A stretch of DNA of 34,785 nucleotides from an uncultured Bacilli bacterium (lineage in GTDB: Bacteria > Bacillota_I > Bacilli_A > RF39 > UBA660), in contig CANPXJ010000007.1 of NCBI GenBank assembly GCA_947585915.1, positions 1-34,785 on the forward strand, read 5' to 3'. Each line of letters begins with the position of its first letter. The stretch's first letter is position 1. Below the pieces are notes generated by a model. That model searched no databases, was not told where the DNA came from, and saw only the letters and a list, made by a program, of their open reading frames with translations. Positions 9,521-26,253 of this stretch are shown in pieces. Both the position numbers and the translations under genes were made by a program.

Positions 9521-10582
9521 ATGAAAAGAATATTTAAAAGTTTATTTATATTCATTTTGATAGTAGGGTGCTTTATATTTAATATTTCTAATTCAAAAGC
9601 ACTAACAGAGCATGTGTTTGGTTCTTCAATAGAAGCCTTGGAAATTCCAAATAATTATAATGTTAAATATTTAAGTTCTGATTCTAGTCCTAAAGATTAT
9701 TTACATTATTTTACCGATGATCGTACTGATTGGCAACCACGCATTAAATACACAGGTAATAAAAATAGTATTATAAATTATGTATTCTGCTTAACATTTC
9801 ATAAAAAGGCTCCAAATGGTGTAGACTATACTAAAAATTTAGAAGGAGATACAATTAAAGATGAGTATTATGCTTATGCGAGCATTATTGAAAATGGTTT
9901 TGGTTCACGTAATTATACATTAGATACCTATGATGATTTACTATGGGATTATTACATTACTTCATTAGCTATTTGGCAATACCAATATAAACATGATTTA
10001 ATGGATCAAGAATCCAAAGCTAAATTTAAAGATATTGAAAGTTTCGAAGGAGACGATACAGCTAAAACAGCTATATTAAATTTGGTTAAAGCTGCAGAGA
10101 GCAATGATAAAACTAAGTTTATTGTTCCTTATAAAGCAAGTGATGACCAATATCAAGAAATTACACCTAATATTGTTTATCAAATAAATGAGGTTAATAT
10201 TACATATTCTTGTAGTATAATTGGCAGTGATTATTATGATATAAATGGTAATAAAGTAAGTAAAGAAGAATACGAAAAAAGTTGTAAATCATCTGTTACA
10301 GCTGAAGACCCATACACTCCACCAACCCCTAAAAAATATTCATGTGAAATAGTTAATGGAATTTATTATGATGCTAAAGGGAATGGTGTTACTAAAGAAA
10401 TTTATGAAAACTCTTGTGGAATAAAAAAAGAACCAGAACCTTATACACCACAACCAGAACCAAAAGAAGAAAACCCTGAAACTGCTGTTGATTCATGCTT
10501 GTATGCAGGTCTTGGTTTAGCAGGTTTAATTCCAACTTATCTTTATTTAAGAAAAAAGAAAAAATTTATAAAGATTAAATAA
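9521..10582 (+). CDS. Thioester-domain-like cell-surface protein with Cys-paired repeats and an NPETA sorting-like C-terminus
   Basis: Signal peptide MKRIFKSLFIFILIVGCFIFNISNSKA; INYVFCLTFHKKAPNG and YYITSLAIW resemble TED motifs; two YSCxI...YYDxxGNxVxKExYExSC repeats; tail NPETAVDSCLYAGLGLAGLIPTYLYLRKKKKFIKIK. Confidence 0.75.
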   Translation: MKRIFKSLFIFILIVGCFIFNISNSKALTEHVFGSSIEALEIPNNYNVKYLSSDSSPKDYLHYFTDDRTDWQPRIKYTGNKNSIINYVFCLTFHKKAPNGVDYTKNLEGDTIKDEYYAYASIIENGFGSRNYTLDTYDDLLWDYYITSLAIWQYQYKHDLMDQESKAKFKDIESFEGDDTAKTAILNLVKAAESNDKTKFIVPYKASDDQYQEITPNIVYQINEVNITYSCSIIGSDYYDINGNKVSKEEYEKSCKSSVTAEDPYTPPTPKKYSCEIVNGIYYDAKGNGVTKEIYENSCGIKKEPEPYTPQPEPKEENPETAVDSCLYAGLGLAGLIPTYLYLRKKKKFIKIK

Positions 10583-10652: not shown

Positions 10653-11585
10653 TTGAATAATATTATAGTTGGAATACCAAGAGCCTTACTTTATTATCGT
10701 TATCAAGATTTATGGCTTAATTTTTTTAAAAATCTTAATATAAAAACTATTGTAAGTCCTAAAACTAATAAAAAGATAATTGAAAAAGGAAGCTCATATG
10801 TTGTAGATGAAGCCTGTTTATCTTTAAAAATTTTTATGGGTCATATTGATTATTTAAAAGATAAATGCGATTATATTTTTATTCCGCGTATAGCTTGTTT
10901 AAAAGAAAATGAAAAAGTATGCACTAATTTTTTAAGTATGTATGATTTAGTTAAAAATACTTTTCCTCAATTAAAAATCTTAAATTTCAATGTTGATTAT
11001 GAACAAAATTTACAAGAAGAAGATGGCTTTATAAAAATGGGTTTGGATTTAAATTTAAATAAAATAAAAGTAATTAGAGCTTATGAGAAAGCTAAAAAGG
11101 AACAAAAATTACTTTCTTCTCAAAAAGAAGCTAAACTAAAAAAACATTTGAATGAAAAAAATATAAAAATAATGGTTGCTTCTCATCCTTATAATTTACA
11201 CGATGAATTTATTGGCATACCAATCATAAATTATTTAAAAAAAGAAAATATTACACCTATTTTATCTGATGATGCTTTCAATAGAAAAATAGATACAAAA
11301 GGCCTGTCTAATACTTTATACTGGACTTTCAATAATGAACTTATGAGTTTTATCAAAAAATATAAAGATAATGTTGATGGTATAATATTGCTTTCGACTT
11401 TTCCATGTGGACCTGATTCTTTAGCAAACGAGTTAATTTTAAGAAGAATTAAAAATATTCCCATTTGTTTTATAACTGTTGATAATAACTCAGCCGATAC
11501 GGGATTAATTACGCGTTTAGAAAGTTTTATCGATATTATTAAAATCAAAAAAAGGAGGAAAAATAGTGAACAAACCTATAATTAG
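10653..11585 (+). CDS. Acyl-CoA dehydratase activase-related protein (DUF2229-like), TTG start
   Basis: IVGIPRALLYYRYQDLWLNFFKNL, SYVVDEACLSLKIFMGHI, STFPCGPDSL, C-terminal DTGLITRLESF. Confidence 0.8.
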   Translation: MNNIIVGIPRALLYYRYQDLWLNFFKNLNIKTIVSPKTNKKIIEKGSSYVVDEACLSLKIFMGHIDYLKDKCDYIFIPRIACLKENEKVCTNFLSMYDLVKNTFPQLKILNFNVDYEQNLQEEDGFIKMGLDLNLNKIKVIRAYEKAKKEQKLLSSQKEAKLKKHLNEKNIKIMVASHPYNLHDEFIGIPIINYLKKENITPILSDDAFNRKIDTKGLSNTLYWTFNNELMSFIKKYKDNVDGIILLSTFPCGPDSLANELILRRIKNIPICFITVDNNSADTGLITRLESFIDIIKIKKRRKNSEQTYN

Positions 11586-12636
11586 TTTTCCTCATTTAGG
11601 AAATTATAGCATCCCGATTTCGTTTTTTTTAAGACATGTGAGTAATTTAAAAGTGCAAACAGCTCCAAAGATTACTAAAAAAACAATTGAATTAGGAAGT
11701 AAATATAGTCCTGATTTTGTTTGCTTACCCTTTAAATATAATTTGGGTAACTTTATAGAAGCTTTAGAAGAGGGTGCGACCATTATTGCTCAAGCTGGGG
11801 GAGGCTGTCGCTATGGTTCTTATGGAGAAGTACAAGAAGAGATATTAAAAGATTTAGGCTACAACTTTACCTTTTTATCTCTTATGGAAAATGGTCGAAT
11901 AAATATTTTAACTATCTATAAATCATTAAAAAAAATTAATTCTAAACTTTCCTTTTTAAAATATATCTACTATCTTTGTTTAACCATGTTAATGATAAAT
12001 TCCATGGACAAATTGGAAAACTACATTCGTCTTAATATTGGTTTTGAGGAGAAAAAAGATAGTTTTAGTAATTTAGAAAAAAAGATGTTAAAAGACTTTT
12101 CGCATGCTAAAGGCTTTATCAATTTAACTATTAAGTATTATAAATATAAAAAACTATTTAAAAAAATTCCTATTAAAAAGAGTGAGGATTGCTTAAAAAT
12201 TGGCATTATTGGTGAACTTTATACTTCCATGGAACAATTTTCTTCTTACTTTATTGAAAAGTCCTTAGCAAAATATAATATTGAGGTGAAAAGATTTACT
12301 GATCTAACTTATTTACTAATCAAAAAACGCTTTAAAAAGAAAAAGATGCTTAGAAAAATGCAAAAATATGTTACTTATGATTTAGGAGCAGATGGTTTAG
12401 ATAATGTTTATCGCGCGGATTATTTAATTAAAAACAAATACGATGGCATAATTCATATTAAACCTTTTGGTTGTACACCAGAAGTGGGAGCAATTCCCAT
12501 AATTGATAAAGTTTGTAAAGACAATAAAATGCCGATAATTTATTTTTCTTTTGATGTTCAAACCTCGGATGAAGGAATAAAAACGCGTTTAGAAGCACTT
12601 GTTGATATGTTAAAAAGGAGAAGAGAAATAAAATGA
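11566..12636 (+). CDS. 2-hydroxyacyl-CoA dehydratase-like protein (companion subunit)
   Basis: SPDFVCLPFKYNLGNFIEAL, AQAGGGCRYGSYGEVQEEIL, KPFGCTPEVGAIPI, SDEGIKTRLEALVDML; overlaps the previous gene by 20 nt. Confidence 0.8.
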   Translation: MNKPIISFPHLGNYSIPISFFLRHVSNLKVQTAPKITKKTIELGSKYSPDFVCLPFKYNLGNFIEALEEGATIIAQAGGGCRYGSYGEVQEEILKDLGYNFTFLSLMENGRINILTIYKSLKKINSKLSFLKYIYYLCLTMLMINSMDKLENYIRLNIGFEEKKDSFSNLEKKMLKDFSHAKGFINLTIKYYKYKKLFKKIPIKKSEDCLKIGIIGELYTSMEQFSSYFIEKSLAKYNIEVKRFTDLTYLLIKKRFKKKKMLRKMQKYVTYDLGADGLDNVYRADYLIKNKYDGIIHIKPFGCTPEVGAIPIIDKVCKDNKMPIIYFSFDVQTSDEGIKTRLEALVDMLKRRREIK

Positions 12637-13583
12637 AAAAATGTTTTTTAGGAATAGATATTGGTTCGATATCAACTAAAGGAGCTATTATCGATGCGGA
12701 TGATAATATAATTTGTAGTGCTTATTTATGGACTGAAGGTAATCCTTTAGAAGCTGTTAAAAAATTATTAAATACTTTAAAAAAAGATTTTGATGAGACG
12801 CTTTATAAAGTAGTAGCAGTGGGAACAACTGGGAGTGCAAGAAGACTTATTGGTACAATTTTAAATGCTACAATTATTAAAAATGAAATAACTGCTCATG
12901 CTATTGGTACAACAAGTTTTTATCCTGATGTTAAAACTATTTTAGAAATTGGGGGACAAGATTCCAAAATTATTTTGATTGAAGATGGAATAGTAGTTGA
13001 TTATGCAATGAATACTTTATGTGCGGCGGGAACTGGGTCATTTTTATCAAGTCAAGCGAAAAGATTAAATGTTAAGGTTGAAGATTTTGGTAGTATTGCT
13101 CTCCAATCTAAAAATCCGACTAAAATTGCGGCTAGGTGTACAGTCTTTGCTGAGTCTGATTTAGTCCATAAAGCCCAAATGGGGTATAAGAAAGAAGATA
13201 TCATTGCTGGTCTTTGTCAAAGTGTAGCTTTAAATTATTTAAATAATGTGGGAAAGGGGAAAAAAATCCAAGCTCCGATTATCTTTCAAGGTGGAGTAAG
13301 TAAAAATATTGGGGTTAAAAAAGCTTTTGAAAATTTACTTAAAAGTGAAGTTATAGTTCCTGAAAATGGGCATTTAATGGGAGCAATTGGCGTAGCTATT
13401 TTAGCAAGGTGTGAAAATAAAGAAAGAGATTTTGATTTTAATATTACTAATGTGCAATTTGAAACAAAAGGAGTAGAATGTCACAAATGTCCTAATAATT
13501 GTGAAATAATTTGTATTAGAAAAGATAAACAATTAATCGACGCTTGGGGAAATAGATGTGAAGCAGGTAGCATTAAAGTGTAA
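12633..13583 (+). CDS. Acyl-CoA dehydratase activase (BadF/BadG/BcrA/BcrD ATPase family)
   Basis: GIDIGSISTKGAI, EIGGQDSKII, AAGTGSFLSSQAKRL, FQGGVSKN; ATGA overlap with the preceding gene. Confidence 0.92.
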   Translation: MKKCFLGIDIGSISTKGAIIDADDNIICSAYLWTEGNPLEAVKKLLNTLKKDFDETLYKVVAVGTTGSARRLIGTILNATIIKNEITAHAIGTTSFYPDVKTILEIGGQDSKIILIEDGIVVDYAMNTLCAAGTGSFLSSQAKRLNVKVEDFGSIALQSKNPTKIAARCTVFAESDLVHKAQMGYKKEDIIAGLCQSVALNYLNNVGKGKKIQAPIIFQGGVSKNIGVKKAFENLLKSEVIVPENGHLMGAIGVAILARCENKERDFDFNITNVQFETKGVECHKCPNNCEIICIRKDKQLIDAWGNRCEAGSIKV

Positions 13584-20879: not shown

Positions 20880-21197
20880 TTAGTTTATATATAAAGCTGT
20901 TGCTATTGTATAATTTTTCTCATGAGAAATTGATATAGCAACATTTTTTAGATTACAAATAGGTTTCCCATTTTTATCATTTAAAATTTCAAGATCTAAA
21001 AAATTAAGTTTTTTTGTATTAGGAAGAGCTTTTATTATAGCTTCCTTGGCAGCAAAACGTCCACATAAATAACTTAGTCCTTTAACTTTATATTCTTCAA
21101 TTTCTTTTTTAGTTAAAATAAGTTCAATAAATCTCTTATCTTTATTTTTAAGTCTTTTATTTTCAACAATGTCACAACCGATATTCATAAGCATCAC
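20880..21197 (-). CDS. acpS: Holo-[acyl-carrier-protein] synthase
   Basis: MNIGCDIVENKRL, LTKKEIEEY, LCGRFAAKEAIIKAL, ISISHEKNYTIATAL. Confidence 0.93.
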   Translation of the reverse strand: MMLMNIGCDIVENKRLKNKDKRFIELILTKKEIEEYKVKGLSYLCGRFAAKEAIIKALPNTKKLNFLDLEILNDKNGKPICNLKNVAISISHEKNYTIATALYIN

Positions 21198-21251: not shown

Positions 21252-21274
21252 TAAAGTACGAGGAGTTGACAACT

Positions 21275-23050
21275 TTGAAAGAATTGCAGTACCCATTTGA
21301 TGTAGAGTATATTATTAAACATAAAAAGAAAATAAAAAAAGAATTATTAACTAAAGAAGGTTTAATTTCTAAGAAAGTTGCTATTTTAGGAGGTTCTACT
21401 ACTAGTGAAATTAAAAATATGTTAGAAATATTTTTGCTTAATTATGGGATAGCTCCAACATTTTATGAATCAGAATACAATAAATATTATGAAGATGCCA
21501 TGTTTGGTAATGAAGAGTTAGATGAATTTAAACCAGATATAATATATATTCACACAACTAATCGCAATATAACTGATTATCCTTCTATTTTAGATGATGA
21601 AAAAACCATTCAACAAATGTTAGATAGTGAATATCAAAAATACACTAATATGTGGGATAAATTATTTTCTAAATTTAAAGCCATAATTATTCAAAATAAT
21701 TTTGAGTATCCTTTTTATCGCTTGCTAGGTAATAAAGATGCCTCTGATATTCATGGCAGAATTAATTTTTTAAATCGTTTAAATTTAAAATTTTATGAAT
21801 ATGCTAGGAGTCATGATAATTTTTTTATCAATGATATAAATTATTTATCTTCTTGTTATGGACTAGATAAATGGTCTAATCAATTTTATTGGCACATGTA
21901 TAAATATGCTTTAGAAGTTCCGGCTATACCATACTTATCCTTTAATATTGCTAATATTATTAAATCAATATATGGTAAAAATAAAAAAGCTTTTGTTCTA
22001 GATTTAGATAATACTTTATGGGGCGGAGTAGTTGGAGATGATGGAGTTGATAATTTAGCTATTGGACCTGAGGTTCCTAGTGGTCAAGTTTATAGCGAGA
22101 TTCAAGCTTATATCAAAGAACATAAAAAGTTAGGAGTTATTTTAAATATCAATTCTAAAAATGATTATGAAAATGCCATTGCTGGTTTAAACCATCCCGA
22201 TAGTCTTTTAAAACCGGAGGATTTTATTATAATTAAAGCCAATTGGAATCCTAAAAATGCTAATATGATTGATATAGCAAAAGAACTTAATTTAGGAGTA
22301 GATAGTTTTGTGTTCGTCGATGATAATCCCGCCGAGCGTCATATAGTGGAAAGTACCTTTGATAATATGGGTATTCCTCAAATCGATGTTCAAGAAAATT
22401 ACATACGGATGATTGATCATAATGGTTATTTTGAAATGACTTATTTTTCTAAAGAGGATTTAAATAAAAATGAATTATATCAAGATAATGCTAAGAGGAA
22501 TCAAATGATGGCTACCTTTGAAAATTATGAAGATTATTTAAAGTCATTAAAAATGAAAGCGGAGATTAGTTCTTTTAAACCAATATATTTAGAAAGAATC
22601 TCTCAGTTAAGTAACAAAAGTAATCAATTTAATTTAACAACTAAACGTTATAGTTTAGCTGATATAGAAAAGGTCGCAAATAGTGAGAACTATATTAAAT
22701 TATATGGTAAATTAGAAGATATCTTTGGTGATAATGGCTTAATTTCGGTTGTTATTGGTCATATAAAAGCTCAGGAATTACATATTGATTTATGGATAAT
22801 GAGTTGTCGCGTTTTAAAACGTAATATGGAAATGGCAATGATGGATGAGCTAGTAGCTAAAGCTAAAGAAGAAAATATCAAGAAAATATATGGCTATTAT
22901 TATCCAACATTAAAAAATAAAATGGTTCAAAATTTCTATGCTGAACAGGGCTTTAAATTAGAAAGTGAAGATGATAATGGCAATAAATATTATAGTTTAA
23001 ATGTCGATAACTATAAAAATCAAAATAAAGTAATTGAGGTGGAACGATAA
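21275..23050 (+). CDS. HAD-IIIC family, FkbH-like protein (start probably TTG 21275; ORF track 21266)
   Basis: HAD motif FVLDLDNTLWGGVVGDDG, VFVDDNPAERHIV, C-terminal GNAT-like region; AGGAG at 21261-21265 spaces correctly to TTG 21275. Confidence 0.9.
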   Translation: MKELQYPFDVEYIIKHKKKIKKELLTKEGLISKKVAILGGSTTSEIKNMLEIFLLNYGIAPTFYESEYNKYYEDAMFGNEELDEFKPDIIYIHTTNRNITDYPSILDDEKTIQQMLDSEYQKYTNMWDKLFSKFKAIIIQNNFEYPFYRLLGNKDASDIHGRINFLNRLNLKFYEYARSHDNFFINDINYLSSCYGLDKWSNQFYWHMYKYALEVPAIPYLSFNIANIIKSIYGKNKKAFVLDLDNTLWGGVVGDDGVDNLAIGPEVPSGQVYSEIQAYIKEHKKLGVILNINSKNDYENAIAGLNHPDSLLKPEDFIIIKANWNPKNANMIDIAKELNLGVDSFVFVDDNPAERHIVESTFDNMGIPQIDVQENYIRMIDHNGYFEMTYFSKEDLNKNELYQDNAKRNQMMATFENYEDYLKSLKMKAEISSFKPIYLERISQLSNKSNQFNLTTKRYSLADIEKVANSENYIKLYGKLEDIFGDNGLISVVIGHIKAQELHIDLWIMSCRVLKRNMEMAMMDELVAKAKEENIKKIYGYYYPTLKNKMVQNFYAEQGFKLESEDDNGNKYYSLNVDNYKNQNKVIEVER

Positions 23051-23292
23051 TGAAAAAAGAAGAAATATATGAAAGATTAAATGAAGTATTTAGAGATGTA
23101 TTTGATGATGAAAGTATCGAAGTAAATGAAAGGACAACTAGTGCCGATATAGAAGATTGGGATTCTTTAGAACATATAAATTTAATCGTGGCTGTGGAAA
23201 ATGAATTTGGTATTAAATTTAATATGAAAGAAGTAACAACTATGAAAAATGTTGGGGAAATGGTCGAAATAATTAGAAGTAGAATAAGTTAG
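23050..23292 (+). CDS. Acyl carrier protein
   Basis: 80 aa acidic protein with phosphopantetheine site WDSLEHINLIVAVENEFGIKF; overlaps the FkbH-like stop. Confidence 0.93.
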   Translation: MKKEEIYERLNEVFRDVFDDESIEVNERTTSADIEDWDSLEHINLIVAVENEFGIKFNMKEVTTMKNVGEMVEIIRSRIS

Positions 23293-23300
23293 GTGATAAT

Positions 23301-23696
23301 ATGCAGTTTCATCATATTGGGATAGCAACAAACGATATAGAAAGTTTAATAAAAAAATTAACAAAACAGTTAGATATCAAAAAGGTAAGTGAAATTATTT
23401 ACGATAAAAATCAAGAAGCTAATCTATGTATGATAACAACGAGTGATGGTATAAAAATAGAATTAATTTCCGGAAAAGTTGTCCAAAATTTAGTAAAGAA
23501 AAAACAATTTTTATATCATACTTGTTATGTTGTAAAAAACATTGAACAAAAAATAAAAGAGCTAGTGGCTGATGGGGCATTACTAGTGCGAGAACCACGC
23601 GAAGCTATACTTTTTAATAATCAGAAAGTAGCATTCTTAATGTGGGACTTAGGTTTAATGGAAATTTTAGAAATGGGGGGGGGTTCTAAACTATGA
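23301..23696 (+). CDS. VOC (glyoxalase/methylmalonyl-CoA epimerase-like) protein
   Basis: FHHIGIATNDIESLI, KIELISG, YHTCYVVKNIEQKI, LMEILEM: His/Glu metal-ligand pattern of the VOC fold. Confidence 0.88.
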   Translation: MQFHHIGIATNDIESLIKKLTKQLDIKKVSEIIYDKNQEANLCMITTSDGIKIELISGKVVQNLVKKKQFLYHTCYVVKNIEQKIKELVADGALLVREPREAILFNNQKVAFLMWDLGLMEILEMGGGSKL

Positions 23697-25224: not shown

Positions 25225-26253
25225 ATGATAATGAAAAAACTAAGAAATGCCATAATTTTTATTATAATATTTTTAATTATATTTTTTCTAATTAATAAAA
25301 TTTTACGAATTGTGCCAAATGCTATTAGTGATTTTTATAAAGAACCAAAAAATAGTTTAGATGTAGTTTACGTTGGATCTAGTAATGCCTATGCTCATTT
25401 TAATACAGTTTTAGCTTATAAAGAATACGGTTTTACAACTGGTTTAATGGCGAGTGATACGCAACCAATTCAATCATTAAAATATTTGCTTAAAGAAGTA
25501 AAAAAATATCAAACGCCAAAAGTCTATGTAATTGATTTAGGGCATATTCATCACTATAAAAATGATGATGTGGGAGCAATACGTAAAATTATTGATGAAA
25601 TGCCATTATCTTTTAATAGACTAGCTCTTACTAAAAAGTTATTAGAGGAATCTAAAATCAAAAAGAAAGATTATATTAATTATTACTTTAGTTTCTTAAT
25701 GTATCATAATACTTGGGAATATATAGGTAATCTAAAACGTGATAATTTGTATAAAGGTTACTTATTAGATAGATTAACTATTAGAATCGAACCGCAAAAA
25801 AAGAATGATTGGAATTATGAGGTATCTTCATTAAATAAAGTTCAAAAAGAAGCTTTAAATGAAACTATAGAATATATAAAGGACAATGATTTAGAAGTAA
25901 TATTTACAGTACCAGTTAAAGTATATGATAAAAAAACAATGGGTTATATAAATGAAGCCACTAAAATAATAGAAAACAATAATTTAAAGATAATTAATTT
26001 TAATACTTGTGAAGATTTTGAAATTGATTATTCACACGATTTATATAATAGTAATCATATCAACGTTTGGGGAGCCACTAAATTTACTAGATACTTTGCC
26101 AAGTATTTAGATCATACTTATAATTTAGATGATCATCGAAATGATAAAAAATATAGTTCATGGCAAAAAGAATATGAAAGATTTGCTAAATCCTTAAAAA
26201 AATTGACTGGAGAAGATATTAAAAATAAGGATTTTGGAAAAGTTAGCCAATAA
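25225..26253 (+). CDS. SGNH/DltD-like extracytoplasmic protein with N-terminal membrane anchor
   Basis: N-terminal TM helix; block I-like VVYVGSSNAYAHFNT; C-terminal HDLYNSNHINVWGATKFTRYFAKYL (D/H region); immediately downstream of MBOAT. Confidence 0.75.
   Translation: MIMKKLRNAIIFIIIFLIIFFLINKILRIVPNAISDFYKEPKNSLDVVYVGSSNAYAHFNTVLAYKEYGFTTGLMASDTQPIQSLKYLLKEVKKYQTPKVYVIDLGHIHHYKNDDVGAIRKIIDEMPLSFNRLALTKKLLEESKIKKKDYINYYFSFLMYHNTWEYIGNLKRDNLYKGYLLDRLTIRIEPQKKNDWNYEVSSLNKVQKEALNETIEYIKDNDLEVIFTVPVKVYDKKTMGYINEATKIIENNNLKIINFNTCEDFEIDYSHDLYNSNHINVWGATKFTRYFAKYLDHTYNLDDHRNDKKYSSWQKEYERFAKSLKKLTGEDIKNKDFGKVSQ

Follow-up and report, generated by a model that had tools for sequence, protein, structure and literature searches.

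The nine-guanine run at the junction of a VOC gene and an MBOAT gene in an uncultured Bacilli bacterium looks like a member of a genome-wide genetic switch set, of a type known chiefly from pathogens, since most of the 36 long G/C runs of the genome are located in promoters of genes for exported proteins. It is probable that the run is a slippage-prone poly-G tract of the contingency type, belonging to a set of approximately 36, and that it doubles as the ribosome-binding site of the MBOAT gene. The genome-wide promoter set is a larger finding than the focal tract. The stretch of DNA analysed (34,785 nucleotides; hereafter the window) is the entire contig C7 of the genome (G000).

The focal tract is located in an operon encoding, in this order, an FkbH-like protein, an acyl carrier protein (ACP), the VOC protein, the MBOAT family O-acyltransferase and a 342-aa protein (Table 1). 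The divergently oriented 4'-phosphopantetheinyl transferase likely primes the ACP of the operon. MBOAT is likewise followed by an ORF in contig C26 of the same genome and in three loci (L106–L108) of rabbit metagenome genomes labelled as Clostridia. The operons of these three loci were related, with two other proteins in the place of VOC before MBOAT. One has 140–174 aa and resembles, by eye, a MaoC-type dehydratase; the other has 244 aa and resembles a short-chain dehydrogenase. The pair may be a clue to the acyl group made. Elsewhere, contig C7 contained glycosyltransferase and other genes. DUF2229, HGD-D and BcrAD_BadFG genes of the 2-hydroxyacyl-CoA dehydratase activase type (10653–13583) were adjoined by a gene for a surface protein with a TED thioester domain (9521–10582).

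Table 1. Features of the focal junction and its operon in the window.
Feature	Position	Strand	Remarks
4'-phosphopantetheinyl transferase (ACPS)	20880..21197	-	PF01648; divergent neighbour
FkbH-like protein	21266..23050	+	FkbH_N, PF21211, E 4.3e-12; VOC-MBOAT operon
Acyl carrier protein	23050..23292	+	PP-binding, PF00550, E 6.7e-05; VOC-MBOAT operon
VOC protein, 131 aa	23301..23696	+	Glyoxalase_4, PF13669, E 5.5e-17; C-terminus set by tract length
G9 homopolymer	23675..23683	+	VOC last codons ATG GGG GGG GGT; MBOAT Shine-Dalgarno position
ATGA, MBOAT start over VOC stop	23693..23696	+	4-nt overlap
MBOAT family O-acyltransferase, 506 aa	23693..25213	+	PF03062, E 4.4e-11; overlaps VOC translationally
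342-aa protein, same operon	25225..26253	+	Downstream of MBOAT; without Pfam family

The genome (1.39 Mb, 93 contigs) contained 36 distinct G/C runs of at least eight, all with a length of 8–10. Markov models of order 1–4 predicted 0.5–2 runs of this length genome-wide (Poisson P < 1e-31), so the set is not compositional noise. In a run-length census covering 405 kb of the genome, taken as 33 stretches, G6 occurred three times, G7 was absent, and G8, G9 and G10 occurred four, 30 and two times, respectively, which places the focal run in the main length class. The perfect repeats of the set were thus much longer than composition predicts, a property of contingency loci. The genome encoded MutS and MutL. 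Loss of mismatch repair was therefore rejected as the cause of slippage; hypermutability by this route cannot be assumed, and a lower slippage rate is to be expected. Slippage would occur against working mismatch repair, unlike the situation in Campylobacter and Helicobacter.

Among the 35 other tracts, 33 were located between TTGACA-like and TATAAT-like boxes with at least 10 of 12 matches (range 10–12; chance 0.016 each), for example in TTGACAATTGGTTTTA-G9-TATAATTGGAGTAGAAAAG. These promoter tracts were found on contigs C1, C4, C5, C10, C13, C16, C17 and others (within loci L037–L069). The G strand was the coding strand in every one of them, and the start codon mostly followed 25–42 nt downstream of the tract. 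A change of one base would alter the spacer and, with it, the strength of the promoter. Spacers were mostly 18–19 nt long in this genome and four congeners, and 15–16 nt in two other genomes. The usual spacer between the −35 and −10 boxes is 17 nt, so many of the assembled promoters may be in a weak state. Within one genome, the flanks were near-constant and the tract length differed by 1–2 among similar promoters. Each species was represented by one genome, and a metagenome assembly gives one consensus length per tract. A scan of IMG/VR for same-species length variants, with the promoter and with the focal flanks around an open gap, found none. We infer that the tracts differ in length within living populations.

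The genes downstream of the promoter tracts mostly encoded exported proteins, including a large family whose members have membrane anchors at the N-terminus. Several camelysin/TasA-like proteins (Peptidase_M73), a prepilin (N_methyl), a WXG100 protein, a pectate-lyase-like adhesin and a Cna_B protein were also among the products. Some of the proteins ended in NPNT(A/S)D followed by a hydrophobic stretch and a basic tail; this ending resembles, and may be, a sortase signal. A GNAT acetyltransferase (contig C21) was among the exceptions. Across genomes, an N-terminal hydrophobic stretch was present in the products of 48 of 53 genes after promoter tracts, compared with nine of 30 window genes (P 1.8e-8). 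Both these counts and the Pfam matches indicate an enrichment of surface or exported proteins among the tract-led genes.

Only two tracts were not in promoters: the focal one and a G9 in contig C26 (L061:9914-9922, corresponding to G000:C26:10625-10633, minus strand), located in frame within a 405-aa gene. The product of this gene has a PP-loop of the SGGVDST type, and the gene is part of a polysaccharide-type cluster in which a tract-free paralogous FkbH-ACP-VOC-MBOAT operon is found as well. In contig C42 (L068; G000:C42:13713-13721, minus strand), both boxes were present at an odd distance, with 11 bases between TTGACT and TATAAT. The upstream side of this tract was of the C5/C16 type and the downstream side of the C46 type; recombination and misassembly at the G run are candidate readings of this hybrid. 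In congener G001, contigs C1, C8, C19, C26, C28, C32 and C49 had a CGGGGGGGG tract at positions 1–9, as if the assembly had broken at variable-length tracts or in shared leaders. Several genomes of the family encoded MutS_I-like ORFs of 108–166 aa in addition to full-length MutS, and in one locus (L122; G022:C23, about 538-770) a poly-G8 was located within such a small stand-alone ORF.

The promoter arrangement was not restricted to the genome under study. The sharp pattern TTGA...G7...TATAAT was present in five of the eight congeners, as well as in two further genera, with 7–20 occurrences each; these counts may tally a single tract repeatedly. The reversed pattern did not occur. With a loose pattern, 123 of the 386 family genomes had matches, representing 67 of 150 genera (reversed control: six matches). 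In a class-wide sample of 395 genomes, family members included, 70 matched (control: five matches). The reversed-pattern control was zero in the genome of the window. The place of the tract within the spacer differed by genus, being next to the −10 box, next to the −35 box or between the two, which suggests repeated origin.

The preliminary description of the window had reported the nine Gs as standing nine nucleotides before an MBOAT start codon that overlaps the VOC stop codon. The sequence agreed: ATGGGGGGGGGTTCTAAACTATGA was present, with nine bases between the last G and the ATG at 23693 and with the VOC TGA at 23694–23696. No other G/C run of at least seven was found across the window. 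In shuffled windows, 0.20 seven-mer matches were expected each, and the three overlapping matches observed were equalled in one of 100 shuffles. GGG made up 10.8% of the glycine codons of the window, and the focal tract was the only pure-G glycine run there; codon preference therefore does not explain it. According to local structure prediction, the mRNA of the junction did not fold more stably than shuffled sequences (z 0.13), so a folded switch is not claimed.

The reading frames were recomputed for different tract lengths. With G9, the VOC stop and the MBOAT start overlapped by the 4-nt ATGA. With G10, the VOC frame ended at a TAA beginning 6 nt upstream of the A of the MBOAT start codon, and with G8 it stayed open until a stop 101 nt beyond this A, matching the earlier statements of a stop just past the tract and of a read-through of about 100 nt into MBOAT. 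The tract lies close to where the VOC coding sequence ends at its 3' side and gives alternative C-termini in silico; any length change other than a multiple of three altered the VOC C-terminus. The MBOAT reading frame was independent of tract length, and the 3' edge of the tract is 9 nt from the MBOAT ATG whatever the length.

We propose the following mechanism. Replication slippage at the focal tract would give rise to G8 and G10 cells. In G9 cells, the ribosome would end VOC on the TGA overlapping the MBOAT ATG. In G10 cells, VOC would terminate 6 nt before that point and have a shorter C-terminus, and coupled initiation at MBOAT would probably still be allowed. In G8 cells, the ribosome would run into MBOAT and produce a VOC protein whose altered tail has 37 residues, and termination would be moved off the MBOAT start. 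The VOC C-terminus would thus be changed and MBOAT translation, less surely, would change to some degree. Since the MBOAT frame and the Shine-Dalgarno distance are fixed, a partial change in MBOAT would be expected rather than ON/OFF switching, and the short distance of the G10 stop from the ATG likewise does not imply a clean switch. An altered VOC C-terminus would be a surer consequence than MBOAT switching. Through such changes in the VOC C-terminus and in MBOAT, the acylation of a surface polymer may be varied.

The tract was predicted to pair with the anti-Shine-Dalgarno sequence at −14.2 kcal/mol, the strongest value among the 30 coding sequences of the window. This purine-rich match with a spacing of 9 nt, together with the SD-like sequence kept in homologous junctions, bears out the earlier remark that the tract is at Shine-Dalgarno distance. 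The comparison covered 11 VOC-MBOAT loci, one of which is the second copy carried by the genome of the window. A tract was present in three of them: G9 in the window, G11 in a congener (G004) and G8 in another genus (G035), each in the frame that preserves the ATGA overlap of VOC stop and MBOAT start. The 4-nt overlap was also found in G004, G003, G015, G035 and the own-genome paralogue. Several of the tract-free loci had GAGGAGG, GGGAGG, GGGGGAGG or GAGGGGG at the same place; AGGAGG also occurred in homologues. The second copy in the genome of the window was without a tract. In the window and in G004, the tract takes the place of the Shine-Dalgarno sequence of MBOAT. In G035, the G8 was located approximately 55 nt further upstream, with a separate SD-like AGGAG near the ATG, and a gain or loss of one base would place the VOC stop 45–52 nt short of the MBOAT ATG.

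These comparisons bear on the best of the alternatives, that a strong Shine-Dalgarno sequence such as GGGGGAGG or GAGGGGG simply drifted to pure G, with slippage being rare and without a selected role. The related motifs at this position in relatives and in the own-genome paralogue, the best predicted pairing in the window and the indifference of the MBOAT frame to tract length are all as such drift would have it. We nevertheless consider it unlikely. A pure run of nine or 11 far exceeds what is needed to pair with CCUCC, the run lengths leap from six to 8–10 with none at seven, as in maintained repeats, and the tract of G035 is too far upstream to be a Shine-Dalgarno sequence, a separate one being retained there.

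The nine identical bases are in transcribed and translated DNA, and the +1 and −1 products would be short and tolerable, which would suit slippage of RNA polymerase or ribosomes. Such slippage would be programmed, not a heritable switch, and would yield different VOC C-termini in constant proportions. It is impossible for the companion tracts, which are untranscribed promoter spacers and yet keep the same length class, and we regard it as improbable for the focal tract as well.

It is more improbable still that the focal tract forms the spacer of an internal MBOAT promoter, in the manner of the genome's other tracts. A TATGAT is found 8 nt downstream of the tract, but the best pair of boxes (TTTAGA-20-TATGAT) reached 9 of 12 matches, a score that 13% of random positions attain, compared with 10–12 for 33 of the 35 other tracts; placement of the focal tract between good −35 and −10 boxes was therefore rejected. 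The −35 part was poor, and at differing positions, in the window, G004 and G035, and the focal tract has no upstream TTGA box and hence falls outside the loose promoter pattern. A chance run or an assembly artefact, such as poly-G from two-colour sequencing, has a negligible probability: the assembly is fragmented (93 contigs) and many other tracts are near contig ends, but the focal tract is 11 kb from the closest contig end, with intact flanking coding sequence in the right frame, it recurs in an independent genome at a protein identity of 78%, and 0.5–2 runs would be expected by chance, compared with the 36 observed.

It is likely that the focal tract is maintained and slippage-prone. A biologically meaningful shift in MBOAT output is a tentative proposal, and we would sooner doubt than assume it. 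The presence of a tract in just three of the 11 VOC-MBOAT loci, and its lack in the own-genome copy, count against the account as a whole, and the coupled frame shared by the observed G8, G9 and G11 also fits simple purifying selection. The tract had been put forward originally as a possible slipped-strand switch or ribosome-binding tract that could make MBOAT expression phase-variable. This idea holds in so far as the tract has the Shine-Dalgarno position, belongs to an extreme set of G8–10 runs and has another length in a congener; clean ON/OFF switching of MBOAT does not follow from it.

Parts of this arrangement have parallels in known systems. In Helicobacter canadensis, poly-G tracts at the 3' end of genes have been proposed to switch C-termini while expression is unaffected (PMC2823697). 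The focal tract is likewise a poly-G near the end of a gene, and its length would alter the C-terminus of the protein; it differs in that it also occupies the Shine-Dalgarno position of a downstream gene that overlaps the first, and the tracts here are shorter (9–11). In Mycobacterium tuberculosis, a one-base change in a poly-G of espR alters downstream translation via folding of the 5'UTR, 144 bp upstream (PMC11898584). The focal poly-G may likewise affect the translation of the downstream gene, but it is itself at the Shine-Dalgarno position.

Most of the set is closer to porA of Neisseria meningitidis and tp0126 of Treponema pallidum, in which poly-G forms promoter spacers, with an optimum spacing of 17 nt for tp0126 (PMC7864442). 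The poly-G between −35 and −10, the surface or exported products and the lengths of approximately 8–11 are shared; this model is inapplicable to the focal tract. Here, however, approximately 33 promoters in one genome of an uncultured Bacilli lineage are concerned, and the spacers are mostly 18–19 nt across several species and 15–16 nt in two. The vlp genes of Mycoplasma hyorhinis, with poly-A in their promoters (PMC10502178), are similar as a multigene surface family with a homopolymer in each promoter. In contrast, the tracts here are poly-G, precede many unrelated exported families and cell-wall-type surface proteins, and belong to another lineage. The phasome of Campylobacter jejuni is described as comprising intergenic and intragenic poly-G tracts (PMC8355987, PMC6321876). 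Both genomes are AT-rich and carry G/C tracts throughout that are hypermutable or, here, putatively so; the difference is that nearly all tracts here are promoter spacers and mismatch repair genes are present. The literature on such tracts found by full-text searches concerned pathogen systems and mycoplasmas only. A full-text literature search found no report of phase variation in RF39-type Bacilli, a weak negative as most subscription papers were outside its scope. The mechanism would resemble those of known systems, and what appears new is that an uncultured commensal lineage combines many promoters with such tracts.

We consider it likely that a multi-locus poly-G phasome exists in a large uncultured lineage of gut Bacilli, which comprises 67 or more genera of one family together with some other families of the class. 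At most tens of exported-protein genes per genome would have slippage-prone G8–11 promoter spacers, and a small number of coding members, the VOC-MBOAT junction among them, would tune the modification of surface polymers. The design of the focal tract would be unusual in that a single repeat combines the roles of coding sequence, stop-start overlap and ribosome-binding site. If true, the set would be a commensal counterpart to the phasomes of Neisseria, Treponema and Campylobacter, hidden so far because the organisms are known from metagenomes alone. If the lengths vary, the repertoire of exported proteins in these commensals would change at random, with a bearing on resistance to phages, recognition by the immune system and the tracking of strains.
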